Positions 12,488 to 61,914 of a DNA stretch of 64,000 bases are shown piece after piece. The position numbers and the translations under genes are program-made. The DNA is from Marinomonas arctica (lineage in GTDB: Bacteria; Pseudomonadota; Gammaproteobacteria; Pseudomonadales; Marinomonadaceae), in NCBI RefSeq assembly GCF_003259225.1, contig NZ_QHJF01000005.1:124001-188000 (forward strand). The letters are read 5' to 3'. The notes under the pieces are model-generated. The model had not been told where the DNA came from and did not search any database. It worked only from the letters and a program-made list of their open reading frames with translations. Within the stretch, counting starts at the first letter, position 1, and each line of letters opens with the position of its first letter.

Positions 12488-15400
12488 GCTTTTCCCTCCA
12501 CTAATTCCGTCACTAATTCTTCTAGCACAACGATGGCCTGGCCGGCGTTGACGCGACTACCGTCTTTTAATAGCAAATCGGACACCACGCCAGACGATGT
12601 CGCATAAATAGGAATCTCCATTTTCATGGATTCTAAAACCACCAGAAGTTGCCCCGCTTTCACTTGATCGCCTACTTTTACTTGGGTTTGCCATACGCTG
12701 CCGGAGACTGGGCTATCAACGACAGTAGCGTCTTCACTCCAAGTGATGTCTGTGGCGACGGCTTCACCTTCGTCCGTATCAAAATGGAATTGTCCATTGG
12801 CGTGCCAACTTGCCAGTTCTTCTTCAAACGCCTGATTACGAATTTGTTTAAAGTCATCAATGCTGTCGCTGTTTTCAGCGATAAAGCTCTGATAATCAGA
12901 CAGGGAAAAGGTACTCTCTTCAATATGAATACCATAGTTATCGTGCGGGAAGTCTTGACGGATTTGATCCAATTCTTCGTGGCTCACTTCGTAAAAACGT
13001 ATCTGATCGAAGAAGCGCAATAGCCAAGGTTGACTAAAGGCACTGGTCAAACGGTAGCGGTTCCACATTTGCAACGTACGACCAACAAATTGATAACCGC
13101 CCGGCCCTTCCATGCCATACACACACAAGTAGGAACCACCAATACCAACGGAATTTTCCGCCGTCCATGTTCGCGCTGGATTGTATTTGGTGGTCACCAA
13201 GCGATGGCGAGGGTCCACTGGTGTGGCCACTGGCGCACCGAGATACACGTCCCCCAAGCCCATGACCAAGTAACTCGCATTAAACAGAATGTCTTTTACG
13301 TCGTTAATGCTGTCTAGACCGTTAATACGACGAATAAACTCTAAATTACTTGGACACCAAGGGGCATTCGCACGGACAGATTGAGCGTATTTATCGATGG
13401 CTTCTTGGCACGCCTTGTCATCCCAAGACAAAGGTAAATGAACAATGCGCGACGGTACGGTCAGCTCAGTCAGTTTTTCACTTAGTGCCGTTTCGGCCGT
13501 TTCTAAATGCACCAATAAATCGGCGTAACTCAGTTGCTGGCTGTCGTAATGAATTTGCAATGAGCGAATACCCGGTGTCAGTTCGCGCATGCCGTTTAAC
13601 GGATGTTGCTCTAGCCATTGCATCAAGGCATGAGCACGAAAACGCAGGCGAATGTCGAGCATTTGCTCGCCATATTCCACCAGCAAAAAATGATCTCCCG
13701 CCGCACGATAGACAATTTCATCACCGAATCGATCTTTCGCTAGGGTTTTCAAAATCGGTGTATGCACTTCACAAGGGGGAATGTAGTTATCGAAGGAGGT
13801 TAAATCAGCCAAAGCTTTATTTTGTGCTGCCTCAAGAACCACCGCATCCTCCAAAGTCACCGGAATGAAACGGATCTTATCGCCAGCACGCAGCTGACCA
13901 AGCTTCCATAAATCTGCCGTTATCACAGTAGCAGGACACACAAATCCTCCAAGCGATGGACCATCTGGCCCGAGAATCACGGGCATGTCGCCCGTGAAAT
14001 CAACGCTACCGAACGCATAAGCATTATCATGAATATTAGATGGATGGAGCCCTGCCTCACCGCCGTCGTTACGTGCCCATTTGGGTTTTGGGCCAATCAA
14101 GCGAACACCCGTTCGGCTAGAGTTATAATGAATCTCCCAGTCTGTGCCGAAGAACATCTCAATGTCTTCTGGGGTAAAAAAGTCTGGTGAGCCATGCGGA
14201 CCGTAAATTACGCGTAGCTCTATTGCGTAGTTAAGCTGAGAAAGTAGTCCCTCAGGCACCGACTTAGCAGGGAAACCACCAAAAGATGAAACATTAGATT
14301 CAAGTACATGCAAGACATCACCGGCTTGAATCGCTCGACCATTGTGTCCGCCAAATTGCCCTAAGGTAAAGGTCGACTTTGATCCCAAATAATTTGGGCA
14401 ATCAAAGCCACCCGCAACGGCTAAGTAGGCTCGAGCACCTCGGTCTTTAATGCGTCCCAACGTTAACGTCTCACCCGCTTTTATCGTGACCACATGATTT
14501 TGTTTAACGGCCTGGCCGTCTATTTTCGCATCAATCATGGCGCCACAAATCACCACACGAGTCTCAAAACTGAACATCAAGCTCGGCCCTTGCAAGGTGA
14601 TTTCCATAGCAGCGGCGGACTCAGCATTATTGAGTAAGCGGTTCGCTAAACGAAAGTGATAACTATCAAACGGGCCAGACGGCGGCACGCCCACATTCCA
14701 ATGGTGCTGACGACCGGGAAAATCTTGTAAGGTGGTTTGTGTACCACCACTTAAGACATCGATACGCGCCGGCTGATAGACAAACTGATTGAGGTAGCGG
14801 GTGCTCACCTCGCCCCCTAATAACACAGGATCGGCGACTAAGTTTCTCAGGTAATCTAGATTGGTTTCTATGCCATATAAAACGCAGTCATCTAGCGTTG
14901 TTTTTAGCTTAGTAAACGCGGCATCGCGATGCGCTTGATGAACAATCACTTTAGCCAACATAGGATCAAAGTAAGGCGACACTTCAATGCCGGTTTCGAT
15001 CCAAGAATCGATACGAACACCCGCGCTAGCATCGGCATTAGTATTAGCAAAAGGCCACTGAACCTGACTCAATAAACCCGCACAAGGTTGAAACTCTTTA
15101 TAAGGATCTTCGGCGTAAATACGCACTTGTACCGCATGACCGTTTGCTTTTAACGCAGCACGCTTTGAATCCAAGACAAGGTCTTCTCCAGCCGCAAGGC
15201 GTATCATCCATTCCACTAAATCCACACCGTAGACCATTTCGGTCACACCATGCTCTACCTGCAAACGCGTATTCACTTCCAGAAAGTAAAATTTATCTGT
15301 GTCCATGTCATAGATAAATTCGACTGTACCAGCATTACGGTACTGTACAGACGACAATAATAATTCGGCGGTTTGATGAAGCTGTTTACGCACGTCGTCG

Positions 15401-16140
15401 GTTAAATTGGGTGCGGGGCACTCTTCGACGACTTTTTGGTTACGACGTTGGCTGGAACAATCGCGCTCACCCAGAGCAAGTGCCTTACCTTTACCATCGG
15501 CAAAAATTTGCACTTCGATGTGACGAGCACGAGCAATGAACTTCTCTAAAAAAACGCCATCGTCGGCAAAGTTATTGGCGCCTAAACGACGCACCGAATC
15601 AAAGCTGTCTCGCAAGCCTTTTTCATCGTGACATAAATGCATACCAATGCCACCGCCACCCGCTGTGCTTTTCAGCATCACAGGATAGCCAATCTCGCTA
15701 GCGATTTGACAAGCGCTGTTTAAATCGGTGAGTAATGCTGAACCTGGCGATAAGGGAACATTGGCTTTTTGTGCCAATTCACGTGCACTGTGTTTTAGAC
15801 CAAACGCCATCATTTGCTCGGCGGTGGGGCCAATAAACGCAATACCTTCCTCTTCACAACGACGCACAAAAGTCGCGTTCTCGCTCAAAAAACCATAGCC
15901 GGGATGAATCGCCTGAGCGCCAGATTGTTTGGCGATATGAAGGATCTTCTCCATATCGAGATAAGTCTCGCTGGCTCCACCCTCGCCTAAGGAGAAAGCT
16001 TCGTCAGCACGTTTGACGTGCAAGCTCTTGGCATCGGATTCAGCGAAGACCGCCACCGAGCCAATCTGCATTTTATTAAGAGTGCGAATGATACGTGTCG
16101 CAATAGCGCCACGATTGGCAATTAAGACCTTGTTAAACAT
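12484..16140 (-). CDS. Biotin-dependent guanidine (urea-type) carboxylase
   Basis: 1218 residues in the urea-carboxylase architecture. A biotin carboxylase with ATP-grasp (~1-450, GGGGIGMHL loop near 160) comes first, then the two carboxyltransferase (AHS/KipAI-like) regions (~465-1060), then a biotinyl domain with the ESMKM motif and biotin-accepting Lys at ~1173. It carboxylates its amide substrate with bicarbonate and ATP. By sequence alone it would be named urea carboxylase. The guanidine-I riboswitch and the two DUF1989 genes in the same operon match the published guanidine carboxylase pathway, where free guanidine is the preferred substrate. It is followed by atzF (4-bp overlap) and preceded by a 93-bp gap with two hairpins. 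Confidence 0.9.
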   Translation of the reverse strand: MFNKVLIANRGAIATRIIRTLNKMQIGSVAVFAESDAKSLHVKRADEAFSLGEGGASETYLDMEKILHIAKQSGAQAIHPGYGFLSENATFVRRCEEEGIAFIGPTAEQMMAFGLKHSARELAQKANVPLSPGSALLTDLNSACQIASEIGYPVMLKSTAGGGGIGMHLCHDEKGLRDSFDSVRRLGANNFADDGVFLEKFIARARHIEVQIFADGKGKALALGERDCSSQRRNQKVVEECPAPNLTDDVRKQLHQTAELLLSSVQYRNAGTVEFIYDMDTDKFYFLEVNTRLQVEHGVTEMVYGVDLVEWMIRLAAGEDLVLDSKRAALKANGHAVQVRIYAEDPYKEFQPCAGLLSQVQWPFANTNADASAGVRIDSWIETGIEVSPYFDPMLAKVIVHQAHRDAAFTKLKTTLDDCVLYGIETNLDYLRNLVADPVLLGGEVSTRYLNQFVYQPARIDVLSGGTQTTLQDFPGRQHHWNVGVPPSGPFDSYHFRLANRLLNNAESAAAMEITLQGPSLMFSFETRVVICGAMIDAKIDGQAVKQNHVVTIKAGETLTLGRIKDRGARAYLAVAGGFDCPNYLGSKSTFTLGQFGGHNGRAIQAGDVLHVLESNVSSFGGFPAKSVPEGLLSQLNYAIELRVIYGPHGSPDFFTPEDIEMFFGTDWEIHYNSSRTGVRLIGPKPKWARNDGGEAGLHPSNIHDNAYAFGSVDFTGDMPVILGPDGPSLGGFVCPATVITADLWKLGQLRAGDKIRFIPVTLEDAVVLEAAQNKALADLTSFDNYIPPCEVHTPILKTLAKDRFGDEIVYRAAGDHFLLVEYGEQMLDIRLRFRAHALMQWLEQHPLNGMRELTPGIRSLQIHYDSQQLSYADLLVHLETAETALSEKLTELTVPSRIVHLPLSWDDKACQEAIDKYAQSVRANAPWCPSNLEFIRRINGLDSINDVKDILFNASYLVMGLGDVYLGAPVATPVDPRHRLVTTKYNPARTWTAENSVGIGGSYLCVYGMEGPGGYQFVGRTLQMWNRYRLTSAFSQPWLLRFFDQIRFYEVSHEELDQIRQDFPHDNYGIHIEESTFSLSDYQSFIAENSDSIDDFKQIRNQAFEEELASWHANGQFHFDTDEGEAVATDITWSEDATVVDSPVSGSVWQTQVKVGDQVKAGQLLVVLESMKMEIPIYATSSGVVSDLLLKDGSRVNAGQAIVVLEELVTELVEGKA

Positions 16141-56290: not shown

Positions 56291-57430
56291 TTATTGTGTT
56301 TTTAACACCACAGTCGCTTGCAAACGACTTTGCCCAAAGCGCGACATCTTTTCAAACTCATCTCGCGCAATCGGCACAAACTGACAATCCAATGGGCTTG
56401 GTGGATCATCAGGTAATTTTTTATCATCGTCCAAATCTGGGTCATGCACCAAAATACAATGCTCGTCGTAACCAGACATCACCACCCAGTGCGGAGATTT
56501 TTTACCATCCATACGATATGTACTAATCAGGATAATCGCCAAAGCACCTTCATCGAACGCTTCGATTAATTGTGCCAACGGCATAGCGGTATAGTGCAAG
56601 GGCACCTTCTCCTCTTCGCACTGATTGACAAAATTTTCGTGTACGCGAGTGATCACTGTTTTCTTGAGTTCATTGCGCACACTGTCTACAAACAAAGGAC
56701 CTTCTTCGCTCAACCAAACATCCGCCAACAAGCCGCGTTTTTTCGCTGCCAAAGCCAACCCCATAGGATGACAGCCACCGTGACCAGAAGTCATGAAAAT
56801 TGTCGTCGCTTCGCGCCAAATCTCCAATTCATCGTTTGGCGTTGCCTGGTAGTCTGGGTGCATCGAAGACAACACCATTTGCAAAGAAGCAGGACCGCAA
56901 GTAAATGGCGTACCTTGTGCTAGCCAAGGCATCGCTCGTGTCGTTTGTTCATCACCCGCGTGACGCAAACGCTTTTGCATACGAATCGCATCCGTTTGGT
57001 CTTCATAATAGGCATCATAATGACCAAACTCCTTGTAACCCATTTTTTGATACAAGGCGATGGCATTATGATTCACATCACTGACTTCCAAACGCAGCAG
57101 CATCTTGCCTTTTTTGACTGCTTTTTTCTCACAAGCTTGGATTAACAATTTACCAATCCCAAGGCCTCGTGCTTCTGGGGATACCGCAAGAGAATATAAG
57201 CGCGCTAAACGCGTTCCTTGGCGAAGATGCAACAAAGCGTAACCCAGTAACTCAACTTCCCCTCTCATAGCCACAAACAAAGCTGTGCCAGAGCTCGTAA
57301 TAGCATGACGGAAACTACGACGGCTCAAACGATCCCCACTAAACGACTTACCCTCTAAAACAAGCAAAGCCTTTAAGTCATCTAAACTGGCCAAACGTAT
57401 ATAAATAGGTGCTGAAGTGCTGGTGCTCAT
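56291..57430 (-). CDS. GNAT acetyltransferase - peptidase C39-like fusion
   Basis: 379 residues. The N-terminal half (~8-155) is a RimI-like GNAT domain (VSPEARGLGIGKLLIQAC acetyl-CoA loop, NHNAIALYQKMGY). The C-terminal half (~168-370) is a C39-like papain-fold peptidase with C178 in FTCGPASLQMVL, H314 in SPHWVVMSGY and D330 in VHDPD, all intact. It lies divergent to an RLAN-ATP-grasp ligase gene, a pairing described by comparative genomics as an amidoligase system. Likely acetylates and trims a peptide made or modified by the ligase. The substrate is unknown. Confidence 0.9.
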   Translation of the reverse strand: MSTSTSAPIYIRLASLDDLKALLVLEGKSFSGDRLSRRSFRHAITSSGTALFVAMRGEVELLGYALLHLRQGTRLARLYSLAVSPEARGLGIGKLLIQACEKKAVKKGKMLLRLEVSDVNHNAIALYQKMGYKEFGHYDAYYEDQTDAIRMQKRLRHAGDEQTTRAMPWLAQGTPFTCGPASLQMVLSSMHPDYQATPNDELEIWREATTIFMTSGHGGCHPMGLALAAKKRGLLADVWLSEEGPLFVDSVRNELKKTVITRVHENFVNQCEEEKVPLHYTAMPLAQLIEAFDEGALAIILISTYRMDGKKSPHWVVMSGYDEHCILVHDPDLDDDKKLPDDPPSPLDCQFVPIARDEFEKMSRFGQSRLQATVVLKTQ

Positions 57431-57746
57431 TACATCGCCTCAAAAGGGCAGAAAGCCATTAGAATCGTCCACTGGTTAGCGGTTAAATCCATGCAAAATA
57501 CAGCAAGGAACCCAGAGAATAGAGAAATTTTCGCGCATTCTAGGGCGAAATCTATTTAAAAGATAGCAAAAGATAGACCAAATTTTCAGTAAAAAGACTT
57601 TTTATTTTTTTATATTAGTCTATTGTTAATACAGGAAAACAAGCGCACTATCCGCACAAAATCAGGGTGTCTAAAAGCACCAAAGCGCCTCAATAGTAGG
57701 CGATTAAGCGCGCTAACGCGCTATTTTATAAGGAAAAATAAAGCCA
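57431..57746. promoter_or_regulatory. Divergent promoter region between the C39 fusion and the ATP-grasp gene
   Basis: 316 bp without a gene. It is A/T-rich in the middle (57590-57620). A perfect short inverted repeat AGCGCG-CTAA-CGCGCT (57707-57722) lies just upstream of the ATP-grasp ribosome-binding site (AAGGA), a possible operator. No promoter can be assigned with confidence. Confidence 0.4.
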
Positions 57747-59225
57747 ATGTCACAGACGTACATTGTTGTTGATCAAGCCAAAGATTGGTCAGCCTTTTTA
57801 CCCAGCGACCGCGTCATTACCTTTACTCAGTACCTCAATCTGGCTGCAACAAAAAGCCAAGGCCGCACTCGAATCATCAATCTTTGTAAAAACAGCAAAT
57901 ACTTATCAGACGGCTACTACTGCTCTTTATTAGCAGAAAGCCGAGGTCATCACGTTATGCCATCTGTACGCGTGCTGAATGACCTGAGCAAAAAAGATCT
58001 CTATGAACTTGAAATCTCACAGTGGCTGCCATTGCTAGCCAAAAAACTCGCGAAACCAGAAGCGCCCATGGAAATGAAATTCCACTGTGTTTTTGGTAAA
58101 ACCGTTCATCCAGAGATGAAAGAGTTTGCACGCAAATTATTCGAAAGCTTCCCAAGCCCCGTGCTCGAAGTGACCTTAAAATTCCGCAAAGAGTGGCAAG
58201 TTACCGCCCTATTCTCTACGTCACAGAGCAAACTAACCGACGCAGAAGAAACACTCTTCGCAGAATCGCTAGAAGCGTTCAGCAACAAAGTATGGAGCAA
58301 AGGCCGCATCCAACGTGCCGCTAAATTTGATATGGCTATTTTGGTCAACCCTGAAGAAGCCATGCCACCCAGCGACGACCAGGCTATTAAAAAGTTTATC
58401 CAAGCGGGCAAGCAACTTGGCATTCATGTCGACCTTATTGGCCCGAAAGACATCATGCGTCTACCGGAATACGATGGCTTGTTTATTCGTGAAACCACCA
58501 ACATCGACCACCATACCTATCGCTTCGCGAAAAAAGCAGAAGGCTTGGGTTTGGTCGTAATGGACGATCCACAATCCATTATGCGTTGCACCAACAAAGT
58601 CTACTTAGCCGATTTGTTTAACACCCATAAAGTGCCTTGCCCAAAAACACGCATCGTTCATAAAGGTGAAAGCAACGTAGAAGACGCGTTGGAAGCTGTA
58701 ATCAGCTACCCGATGGTCGTAAAAATACCTGACGGTGCATTTTCCAAAGGCGTGATTAAAGCAGAAAATCGCGAAGCCTTAACCGAGAGCCTAAATACTC
58801 TGTTTAAAAAATCGTCGTTACTATTGGTACAAGAGTATCTGTACACGGAATTTGACTGGCGTATCGGCATATTGAACAACAAACCGATTTTTGCCTGCCG
58901 TTACTATATGGTGAAAAATCACTGGCAAATCTACCAACACACAGGCAGTAAAAGCCAAAGTGGTGGCTTTGATACCTTGCCTACCTTTGAAGTACCACGC
59001 CGTGTATTACAAGCCGCGATTGCCGCCACCAAACCAATTGGTGAAGGCTTATATGGCGTAGACGTAAAAGAAATCAACGGCCGAGGTTATGTCATTGAAG
59101 TCAACGACAACCCAAGCATCGACCGTGGTGTAGAAGACAAATACATCGGCGACGAACTCTACATGCAAATCATGTCAGAATTCTTACGCCGCATGCAAGT
59201 AAAACGAGGCGACCACCAAGCCTAA
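57747..59225 (+). CDS. RimK-like ATP-grasp ligase with N-terminal RLAN domain
   Basis: 492 residues. The N-terminal ~190 residues match the RLAN domain found only in front of RimK-like ligases. A RimK-type pre-ATP-grasp/ATP-grasp module follows, with FVVKIPDGAFSKGV-like lysine region (~330), LLLVQEYLYTEFDWRIGIL and the metal-binding VIEVNDNPSIDRG near residue 460. These enzymes join amino acids (often glutamate) to a carboxylate with ATP. The partner across the divergent promoter is a GNAT-C39 fusion. A terminator follows. Product unknown. Confidence 0.92.
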   Translation: MSQTYIVVDQAKDWSAFLPSDRVITFTQYLNLAATKSQGRTRIINLCKNSKYLSDGYYCSLLAESRGHHVMPSVRVLNDLSKKDLYELEISQWLPLLAKKLAKPEAPMEMKFHCVFGKTVHPEMKEFARKLFESFPSPVLEVTLKFRKEWQVTALFSTSQSKLTDAEETLFAESLEAFSNKVWSKGRIQRAAKFDMAILVNPEEAMPPSDDQAIKKFIQAGKQLGIHVDLIGPKDIMRLPEYDGLFIRETTNIDHHTYRFAKKAEGLGLVVMDDPQSIMRCTNKVYLADLFNTHKVPCPKTRIVHKGESNVEDALEAVISYPMVVKIPDGAFSKGVIKAENREALTESLNTLFKKSSLLLVQEYLYTEFDWRIGILNNKPIFACRYYMVKNHWQIYQHTGSKSQSGGFDTLPTFEVPRRVLQAAIAATKPIGEGLYGVDVKEINGRGYVIEVNDNPSIDRGVEDKYIGDELYMQIMSEFLRRMQVKRGDHQA

Positions 59226-59953: not shown

Positions 59954-60385
59954 TCACTTATACAGCATCTCACCACGCATCGGCGCAAGCACCTTTAATA
60001 CTCGATTTTGCTGAACATAAGTTAAGCCCGCTTTTTTCATCGCATTAACCAATAAGTCAACGGTCAAATTAAAGTCAGTTTCAGTAATCTTCTGTCCCTG
60101 ATGGACTTTCAACATAGTATCACCAGTGTAAGTACAGGGGCCGCCGGTATCAACACAAAGATGTTCAATGAATTTTTCTCGAAAGCGTGTGATATTGGTT
60201 TTTTCAAAATAACGATAGATGTCTTTATTGAAGCTAATTTCGTCAATGAAATTATCGGTAATGGCTTCGATAGTTGGCTGCCCACCTATTTCTTCGTATA
60301 AACTGATCGGCGTTTTCGTTGGTGTCGCGCAAGCAACCAACAATACACTCATCATCAGAAGTGCGGTTTTTAGATGGTTTACCAT
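59954..60385 (-). CDS. Lipoprotein with group 1 truncated haemoglobin domain
   Basis: 143 residues. A lipoprotein signal (LLVAC, lipidated Cys19) is followed by a truncated globin domain: SLYEEIGGQPTI start, YRYFEKTNI and proximal His95 in MLKVHQGQ. Two cysteines (C77, C84) in the CD region could form a disulfide. Truncated globins bind O2 or NO. Being membrane-anchored outside the cytoplasm is unusual. The last gene of a three-gene unit with a DUF3034 protein (7-bp overlap) and a cupredoxin. Confidence 0.88.
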   Translation of the reverse strand: MVNHLKTALLMMSVLLVACATPTKTPISLYEEIGGQPTIEAITDNFIDEISFNKDIYRYFEKTNITRFREKFIEHLCVDTGGPCTYTGDTMLKVHQGQKITETDFNLTVDLLVNAMKKAGLTYVQQNRVLKVLAPMRGEMLYK

Positions 60386-61245
60386 AAATACCCCGTCATC
60401 GATAAATAAACGCCTTTTTGATCTTTCTGCGTAGCAACCGTACCCAAATCCGCATAAGCCGCCGTGAAGTTAATATTTTTGTTCGGCATATAACTGACAA
60501 ACAGATCTGTCCAATCGTCTTCTTTGACACTGGATAGATTATTGGGTTTTTGACGATACTCCATGCCCACGACCCAATTAGGCGATAGAAGTAAGCCGAC
60601 ACTGACCTCCATCATCATTTGATAGCCATTGTTGTCTGGCCCACCATAACCTAACAACCCCATCTCATTGGCCTTGGTAGCACGAGCGGTTACGTTCCAA
60701 ACCAGGTTGTAACCCGCAACCGCCCCTAAATGCACCTTAGTCGCAGCAACATAAAAATCCGTACCACTATCGTCTTTTGCACCAAGAGCTGTCGCCACAG
60801 AGTCATCATCTAATTGCTTATGCTGCAAGCCTATACTCAGCTGAGGATAAGTTGAATAAACAACGTCGCCATATAAACGAACCTTTGCACCAATAACGTT
60901 TTGTTTGATCTCACCAACACTTAATTGCTTCACCAAACCGACGGGCAAACCAAACGTCTGTTGAGCATAGCTTAATTCAACTCTGTCGTAGAAACTCGTC
61001 GCCACACCGATCGATGACAATCGATAATCCGTAATATTCACATCCGTCATAAATAACAACGCTGTGGTCTCGTCACGGCTATCGTATCCAGCCAACGTTG
61101 CCCAAGGCACGAGACCGCCACCACCACTGCCCTCTAATTGCGAAAGCCCAGCAGTAGCAAGCAACTTACCTTCTGCTGCCATAATAGGAGTAGCACACAA
61201 AAAAATGCCGCCTACCATCACTGTTTTAATGTGTTTTCCGCGCAT
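60379..61245 (-). CDS. DUF3034 outer-membrane-type protein
   Basis: 288 residues with a Sec signal (MRGKHIKTVMVGGIFLCATP, cleaved after IMA). The mature protein is rich in alternating beta-strands and aromatic residues and ends in a C-terminal Trp (TGYLW), as outer-membrane barrels end in an aromatic. I recognise it as DUF3034. The function is unknown. It lies between a cupredoxin gene (45 bp upstream) and a globin lipoprotein gene (overlap 7 bp). Confidence 0.8.
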   Translation of the reverse strand: MRGKHIKTVMVGGIFLCATPIMAAEGKLLATAGLSQLEGSGGGGLVPWATLAGYDSRDETTALLFMTDVNITDYRLSSIGVATSFYDRVELSYAQQTFGLPVGLVKQLSVGEIKQNVIGAKVRLYGDVVYSTYPQLSIGLQHKQLDDDSVATALGAKDDSGTDFYVAATKVHLGAVAGYNLVWNVTARATKANEMGLLGYGGPDNNGYQMMMEVSVGLLLSPNWVVGMEYRQKPNNLSSVKEDDWTDLFVSYMPNKNINFTAAYADLGTVATQKDQKGVYLSMTGYLW

Positions 61246-61290
61246 TTATTCCTACTTTTATATCTAAAAAGCGTAGACAAAAACCTCGCT

Positions 61291-61914
61291 TTACCATTTT
61301 TTCTTGCCAAACCCTTTATGCGAACTATGGTCTATTACCTCAATAGGAGGTAGTAGCTCTAATGTTACGGTTTGCTCTGTGTCGCTCGTAATATCAATAG
61401 ACTCCAGTGCATTCACACCATCAATCGACCTTTCAGTCCACAACGACACTTTATCACCTTGTTTTACTGGCAAACGAACTTGGCCATTTTTATCCGTTTT
61501 TAAGGTAAGCGCATTATCTGCCACGATAATGTAGCCAATCATGTCATCGTGTATGTTGCAACCGAGTACAACAAGGCCGGGGTTATCAAACAAAATTGGG
61601 GCAACGTCAGTACCCTTATACAACTTAATTTCAAAGGTCTTAGGCTCTGAAAAACTGTAAACGTGATGACGAATATCATCACTGTTAGGAAAACTAACAT
61701 ATTGGCCTTTTTGCACCACAATCACGCGTGGTACGAAGGACTCATCAACCTGATCCATAACAGCGACCGAGCTCGGTGTGCCCACAACGTTTTTGGAAAC
61801 CGTCACCACCGCGTCTGCAACAGGCAGATTATCTTGATCAACAATACTCAAGGTCATATCAGCCCAAGCACTGGGCAAAAAACAGCAAAACATCAACACA
61901 AGTAGGTAACGCAT
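61291..61914 (-). CDS. Periplasmic cupredoxin-like protein (type 1 copper site)
   Basis: 207 residues, signal peptide cleaved near SAWA. A cupredoxin domain carries the likely type 1 copper ligands H83 or H84 (IRHHVYSF), C119, H122 and M125 (GCNIHDDM). A Lys/His-rich tail (SSHKGFGKKKW) follows a second beta-domain. Often annotated as a methylamine utilisation protein, though no amine dehydrogenase genes are present. First gene of the cupredoxin - DUF3034 - globin operon. Probably an electron carrier. Confidence 0.85.
   Translation of the reverse strand: MRYLLVLMFCCFLPSAWADMTLSIVDQDNLPVADAVVTVSKNVVGTPSSVAVMDQVDESFVPRVIVVQKGQYVSFPNSDDIRHHVYSFSEPKTFEIKLYKGTDVAPILFDNPGLVVLGCNIHDDMIGYIIVADNALTLKTDKNGQVRLPVKQGDKVSLWTERSIDGVNALESIDITSDTEQTVTLELLPPIEVIDHSSHKGFGKKKW

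Follow-up and report, generated by a model that had tools for sequence, protein, structure and literature searches.

A stretch of 64,000 nucleotides of the Marinomonas arctica genome (contig NZ_QHJF01000005.1, positions 124,001 to 188,000; hereafter the window) carries two divergent genes whose start codons lie 316 nt apart. One encodes a GNAT acetyltransferase fused to a C39-like cysteine hydrolase (DUF3335), the other a ligase in which an RLAN domain precedes a RimK-like ATP-grasp domain. Re-reading of the open reading frames (ORFs) confirmed both genes, their strands and their end coordinates as originally predicted. This enzyme partnership, widespread in bacteria, is likely to make or edit a capped peptide. 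The locus comprises the following features, in window coordinates:

56291..57430, minus strand: GNAT and C39-like (DUF3335) fusion protein, 379 aa (ORF, Pfam, AlphaFold2)
56300..56932, minus strand: C39-like cysteine hydrolase domain, about residues 167-377 (Pfam DUF3335; C178, H314, D330)
56954..57409, minus strand: GNAT domain, about residues 8-159, apparently of N-terminal-acetyltransferase type (E115, Y127, Y141 and Y142 invariant)
57533..57546, minus strand: putative conserved promoter-like block GCGCATTCTAGGGC (read on the plus strand), 5' of the GNAT-C39 gene (pattern comparison)
57623..57651, plus strand: putative conserved sigma-70-like promoter TTGTTA-N17-CACTAT, 5' of the ligase gene (pattern comparison)
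57707..57722, no strand: inverted repeat AGCGCG-CTAA-CGCGCT, judged incidental (promoter comparison, shuffles)
57747..59225, plus strand: RLAN and RimK-like ATP-grasp ligase, 492 aa (ORF, Pfam, AlphaFold2)
57825..58265, plus strand: RLAN N-terminal domain, residues 27-173 (Pfam; outside the RimK-matching part)
58326..59201, plus strand: predicted RimK/LysX-type ligase fold, residues 194-485 (D439, E451 and N453 conserved)

The fusion protein matches DUF3335 over residues 167-377 (5.7e-83) and Acetyltransf_1 (1.4e-17), and its AlphaFold2 model has a predicted local distance difference test (pLDDT) of 91.2 and a predicted template modelling score (pTM) of 0.86. Within the GNAT domain, E115, Y127, Y141 and Y142 are invariant in a 44-row alignment. 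By RimI numbering, E115 and Y127 correspond to the two catalytic residues of that enzyme, a Glu and a Tyr. Conservation also extends to most of the acetyl-CoA loop RGLGIG, where residue 88 is R in 39/44 rows and Q in 5/44, residue 91 is G in 39/44, and residue 93 is either G (24/44) or A (20/44). By profile and by the fold of the predicted model, the domain lies nearest to the RimI/Ard1 N-terminal acetyltransferases: VIA ranks 1-18 and Foldseek ranks 1-12 are Ard1, RimI, NatA, NatC, NAA60 or S18-type entries, counting 9mto, which is so named in another search of this analysis. Other GNATs rank 2-3 Z below these (22.4), with PaiA at 19.8 and tabtoxin resistance protein at 19.6, and a single-sequence search returns N-terminal acetyltransferase names first and a streptothricin-type acetyltransferase fifth. 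Profile and modelled fold would accordingly place the GNAT in the N-terminal acetyltransferase type, which refines the original prediction. RimI and Ard1 (NatA) share this fold, whereas here it is fused to a C39-like hydrolase and scores 72 bits against the S18-alanine acetyltransferase model of RimI (TIGR01575), below the equivalog cut-off of 86.4. The fold matches listed for the fusion were taken up by the GNAT domain, and a PDB sequence search gave no meaningful match for the C39 part (best E value 0.34). The C39 part has the Cys-His-Asp triad of C39-like cysteine peptidases, assigned from the original prediction and the C39 pattern, with C178 and H314 each present in 57/57 and D330 in 55/57 fusion homologues. 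The basic residues R206, R252 and K256 are invariant in 44/44 rows, which would fit an anionic substrate.

The ligase matches RLAN (PF14401; 1.7e-46, 158.1 bits, cut-off 25) and RimK (PF08443; 1.9e-11, 44.4 bits, cut-off 21). Its AlphaFold2 model (pLDDT 87.4, pTM 0.75) is closest to RimK, LysX and ArgX and adopts a predicted RimK/LysX fold; the structural matches listed for it span residues 190-487, so the remainder of the model is barely probed. The ATP-grasp motif described originally as ENDN is right in substance and reads E451-V-N453-D454-N455. E451, N453, D454 and N455, like D439, are each conserved in 80-81 of 82 rows, and with the triad and the acetyl-CoA loop this bears out the prediction that the catalytic residues of all modules are intact. 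Neither protein passes an NCBIfam cut-off, and the ligase scores 75.9 bits (77 in a second search) against the RimK family alpha-L-glutamate ligase model (TIGR00768), below its cut-off of 143.4. A canonical RimK is encoded elsewhere in the same genome and scores 278.5 bits, above the cut-off.

That the two genes belong together, as had been proposed, is borne out by both genome co-occurrence and adjacency. Among 274 genomes of the class, strong DUF3335 matches occur in 44 and RLAN in 63, with both in 43 and neither in 210 (Fisher test, 1.6e-33); in the exception (G209; G and L numbers are our handles for genomes and loci) the DUF3335 gene sits on a contig of 11.4 kb. Four weak DUF3335 matches (G059, G071, G104 and G171) were excluded from this test, and when they are counted RLAN is found in 45 of the 48 class genomes with DUF3335. 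For 299 genomes of the phylum, a set that overlaps the first in some genomes, the corresponding numbers are 47 with DUF3335, 56 with RLAN and 46 with both (4.5e-43). The first 85 loci, which include 20 regions from exactly those class genomes that have RLAN and lack a strong DUF3335 match, have both genes close together in 57, with a 4-nt overlap in 6 (mechanical ORF starts). These 57 comprise 29 same-strand pairs with the fusion upstream, 21 divergent pairs like that of the window, 1 convergent pair and 6 same-strand pairs with the fusion downstream, 4 of which (L119, L138, L145 and L146) reflect over-extended ORF starts, GNAT-C39 being actually upstream. One further set of loci comprises the best 80 of 593. 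Three genomes (G504, G332 and G115) hold both genes apart or on separate contigs; that both are kept when apart, in at least three genomes, suggests a link that is functional and more than positional. Extra DUF3335 copies at L315 (G508:C15:30144-40372) and L302 (G584:C39:240274-240885), in genomes that also hold a normal pair, have no RLAN gene seen alongside.

Across 191 RLAN loci, several of which are near-duplicates (L161/L177; window/L173) so that the counts are not independent, the ligase has a GNAT partner in 162, present as the GNAT-C39 fusion in 118 and as GNAT alone in 44. The C39 part is therefore a dispensable module. A free-standing C39-like protein, homologous to the fused C39 (hhalign probability 96.6%), is found at 11 loci, 10 of which have both GCS2 and N-formylglutamate amidohydrolase (FGase). 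GCS2 occurs without C39 at 2 loci (L100 and L023, truncated at its start), DUF2817 alone at 1, and 15 have no partner at the cut-offs used. Among these last, L106, L115, L149, L180, L184, L209 and L219 lie at most about 320 nt from the end of the available sequence, and for L105, L106, L115 and L292 DUF3335 is found on another contig of the same genome. In a tree of 109 ligases, those of the GCS2 layout form one clade of 10 rows with a Shimodaira-Hasegawa-like approximate likelihood ratio of 100, and strongly supported branches require at least 8 changes for the GNAT-only layout and at least 13 for the fusion layout. The GNAT-domain tree is weakly supported, with solo GNATs placed among fused ones and only 2 changes forced by its starred branches; its two own-genome background rows (L280 and L282) are void, having been read in the wrong frame. 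The layouts are most simply explained by repeated gain or loss of the C39 module and retention of the GNAT. Much the same distribution would be expected if ligases or cassettes had been exchanged among genomes, and the weakly supported GNAT tree does not distinguish the two. The set of C39-like, RLAN ligase, GCS2 and FGase-like genes is seen at L085, L086, L087, L088, L090, L091, L094, L096, L098 and L102.

These observations lead us to favour, tentatively, a two-ended pathway, with a small N-capped oligopeptide of the cytosol as its most likely product. The GNAT domain would acetylate an alpha-amino group, and the RLAN/RimK-type ATP-grasp enzyme would use ATP to ligate an amino acid onto a carboxylate; the most likely acceptor is either a short acidic peptide, through its C-terminus, or an N-acetylated amino acid. 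The C39-like domain may then hydrolyse or transfer peptide or acyl bonds, editing or recycling the product. The analysis shows the structure of the genes, their very strong coupling, the conservation of the active-site residues and, in the predicted models, folds of RimK and N-terminal-acetyltransferase type; from these we infer the reactions, the sequence in which they run, the acidic nature of the substrate and a product that is a small molecule. The original division of labour, in which one enzyme ligates and the other acetylates and trims, remains in our judgement the best inference. The gene neighbours point in the same direction. At 109 loci, immediate neighbours outnumber genes lying further away for DUF2817 (13 vs 0), GCS2 (9 vs 0), ArgE/M20 (7 vs 1), DUF155 (7 vs 2) and M14 (3 vs 0), and of these the hydrolase families ArgE/M20, DUF2817 and M14 act on N-acyl amino acids or peptides. 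The GCS2 clade combines two ligases with an enzyme from a family of N-acyl-glutamate hydrolases, which suggests small-peptide chemistry, and the GCS2/FGase layout together with the N-acyl-amino-acid hydrolase neighbours favours a small acidic N-capped peptide. That no conserved precursor was seen among the small ORFs near these loci, at the sensitivity of the search, also counts for this reading.

Several points weigh against it. Our search of open-licence literature found no product, substrate or phenotype of the pair. The nearest solved relatives of the GNAT act on protein N-termini, and a protein target fits equally. FGase (0 adjacent vs 7 further) and argA (0 vs 3) show no enrichment at the 109 loci, FGase because GCS2 lies between it and the ligase. 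The neighbour families were chosen after being seen in these loci, which makes the p-values optimistic. Genome-wide, DUF2817 does not co-occur with RLAN (4/10, p 0.18, using 10 of 24 matching genomes, strong matches only) and DUF155 does (20/36, p 4.8e-6, using 36 of 37). Neither family was detected in the window's own genome, which rules out both as obligatory parts. RLAN is also missing from 9/35 genomes of the genus, and the synthetase model of N-acetylglutaminylglutamine amide (NAGGN; TIGR03103) has no match above cut-off in this genome. DUF155 (RMND1/Sif-like) genes adjoin RLAN loci with either of the main layouts (L107, L112, L125, L142, L190, L201 and L305) and near, not adjacent to, four others (L085, L102, L309 and L316). 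An argE-like (M20) gene adjoins the GNAT-C39/RLAN cassette at L114, L126, L128, L137, L140, L141 and L308, and an argA-like gene lies close by at L124, L126 and L137.

A possible, less probable alternative is that the pair modifies the termini of a cellular protein, with the C39-like protease trimming its N-terminus, the GNAT acetylating it and the ligase extending its C-terminus, and with DUF2817 or M14 carboxypeptidases serving as erasers where present. The best profile and fold matches of the GNAT, the invariance of E115, Y127 and YY141-142, the nearness of the ligase to RimK, a modifier of a protein C-terminus, and the M14-like neighbours are all consistent with this. There is also a precedent: a cysteine protease, ACTMAP, followed by the N-terminal acetyltransferase NAA80 matures the actin N-terminus (PMC13367750). 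The proposed bacterial arrangement would resemble ACTMAP and NAA80 combined with RimK, whereas the eukaryotic enzymes are separate proteins with no ligase; the likeness is one of roles. On the other hand, the GCS2 and FGase partners of one clade indicate free amino acids, the Z gap to other GNATs is only about 2-3, and no target protein was identified. In a more speculative version, which we consider unlikely, a bacterial module sets both ends of one protein, with C39-like trimming and NatA/RimI-type re-acetylation in one polypeptide and C-terminal extension by the RLAN ligase, after the manner of RimK or tubulin ligases; if true, this would be one dedicated writer/eraser system.

The patchy distribution within the genus (RLAN in 26/35 Marinomonas genomes) and the recurrence of hydrolase neighbours would suit an improbable role in salvage or detoxification, in which the pair caps, reseals or degrades peptides or N-acyl amino acids with no dedicated product; against this, such tight coupling of an ATP-consuming ligase to a GNAT suggests dedicated synthesis. 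As the annotation covered a part of the neighbour clusters, there may be a transporter or catabolic link. It is very doubtful that the pair matures a graspetide-like ribosomally synthesised and post-translationally modified peptide, in which case C39 would remove the leader of a ribosomal precursor and the GNAT would cap it. A literature search combining ATP-grasp, GNAT and C39 does bring up microviridin work, as far as the retrieved excerpts go, but the ligase folds closest to RimK, LysX and ArgX in the predicted model, and a comparison of 740 short ORFs of 18-90 aa, lying outside larger ORFs and no more than 2.5 kb from 109 loci, yielded, by short BLAST at 1e-3, which a highly divergent precursor could escape, a single family linking two loci, and that is cold-shock-protein-like. 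Least probable of all is that the ligase, on the strength of its RimK-like fold, is another ribosomal protein S6 modifier. The separate canonical RimK, the score of the window ligase below the RimK family cut-off, the extra RLAN domain and the dedicated GNAT partner argue against it, and with canonical RimK encoded separately an S6-only role is unlikely. A defence system was also considered and set aside, as neither protein matched any family of the PADLOC anti-phage defence models.

The small N-capped peptide that we favour finds a parallel in NAGGN, for whose synthesis the genes of an asparagine synthase, a peptidase and an acetyltransferase/ligase lie together (PMC8070244). That cluster (asnO-ngg-aminopeptidase; PA3459-PA3461) likewise combines a GNAT, a ligase and a peptidase for N-acetylation and peptide-bond formation. 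There, one protein (Ngg) acetylates and ligates with an asparagine-synthase partner, whereas in the window the RLAN ligase is a protein of its own and the GNAT is joined to C39. The fusion reaches 30.3 bits against TIGR03103 (cut-off 569) and the ligase has no match to it among those listed; since the genome also has no match above cut-off, the parallel is one of logic only. RimK, the S6 glutamate ligase that works with RimB, differs from the window ligase, which has an extra RLAN domain, a sub-cut-off score and other partners, and whose own genome holds a separate RimK. In Pseudomonas, rloABC couples an ATP-grasp protein with a peptidase (PMC12239564), the partners being a retropepsin and an inactive transglutaminase; the available portion mentions no GNAT-C39. 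For Pseudomonas sp. ANT_H4, fosmid genes listed with accessions that follow one another include a 'RimK family protein' and a GNAT, with no function given in the passage concerned (PMC9756463), and two further papers, as far as their available text goes, treat other ATP-grasp systems (PMC2922099; PMC4431377).

In the control region, the original prediction had drawn attention to the inverted repeat AGCGCG-CTAA-CGCGCT. It does not hold up as a control element: the repeat or its TTAA-loop form occurs in 2/13 Marinomonas promoters compared (L161, a genus locus without it, lies outside this set), and when the upstream 363 nt were shuffled by mononucleotides 300 times, 41% of the shuffles contained one or more perfect inverted repeats of 6 bp around a loop of 3-8 nt, so it is no more than chance would give and we reject a role as operator. 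Two other patterns, both formulated only after inspecting the promoter sequences, are better conserved in the 13. Eleven have TTGTTA-N17-CACTAT, or its -10 part alone, 5' of the ligase gene; twelve have GCGCATTCTAGGGC, or a similar or truncated version of it, 5' of the fusion gene. The M. rhodophyticola counterpart of the ligase is 100% identical across 492 residues, and the intergenic spacer differs. As for the surroundings, the threonine-aldolase-like neighbour gene of the window recurs in 6/85 loci, all from Marinomonas, and the glyoxalase-like neighbour in none of the other loci among the 85 compared. A row of globin-like (PF01152), DUF3034 and 207-aa protein genes lies at 59954-61914 on the minus strand, the 207-aa protein having no Pfam match, and similar genes are found in several Marinomonas loci. 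Elsewhere in the window, a weak RimK-family (ATP-grasp) match at 15199-15885 on the minus strand, within a 1219-codon open frame, is at a guess a carboxylase-type ATP-grasp enzyme.

The grouping of these families as an amidoligase system by comparative genomics, on which the original prediction drew, agrees with what Iyer et al. 2009 reportedly proposed. That study and the Pfam entry for RLAN (PF14401) are said to describe the association of RLAN proteins with a GNAT-papain partner, to note GCS2 and M20 neighbours and to predict peptide biosynthesis. The same domains occur here in the same pairing, RLAN followed by a RimK-like ATP-grasp domain next to a GNAT-C39/DUF3335 fusion; GCS2 and M20 neighbours recur, and there is no difference in kind. 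The window pair thus belongs to an already predicted system. Neither 'RLAN domain' nor 'PF14401' is mentioned in the open-licence literature searched, which also returned no experimental study of the pair. By the gene order of L021 and the PA numbering, PA1345 is presumably the Pseudomonas aeruginosa RLAN protein. PA1345 is tabulated with a putative site in the part of one paper that deals with Cpx (PMC12802237).

What is added here is the quantification of the pairing, the layouts, the repeated absence of C39, the GNAT type suggested by profile and predicted fold, and the links to DUF2817 and DUF155. RLAN ligases occur in 63/274 genomes of the class and their acetyltransferase partner is near-obligatory (162/191 loci); an orphan pair this common probably makes a metabolite or a protein modification absent from current maps. 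The system also offers a testable set, consisting of two genes, a natural version lacking C39 and a natural version with GCS2 and FGase.

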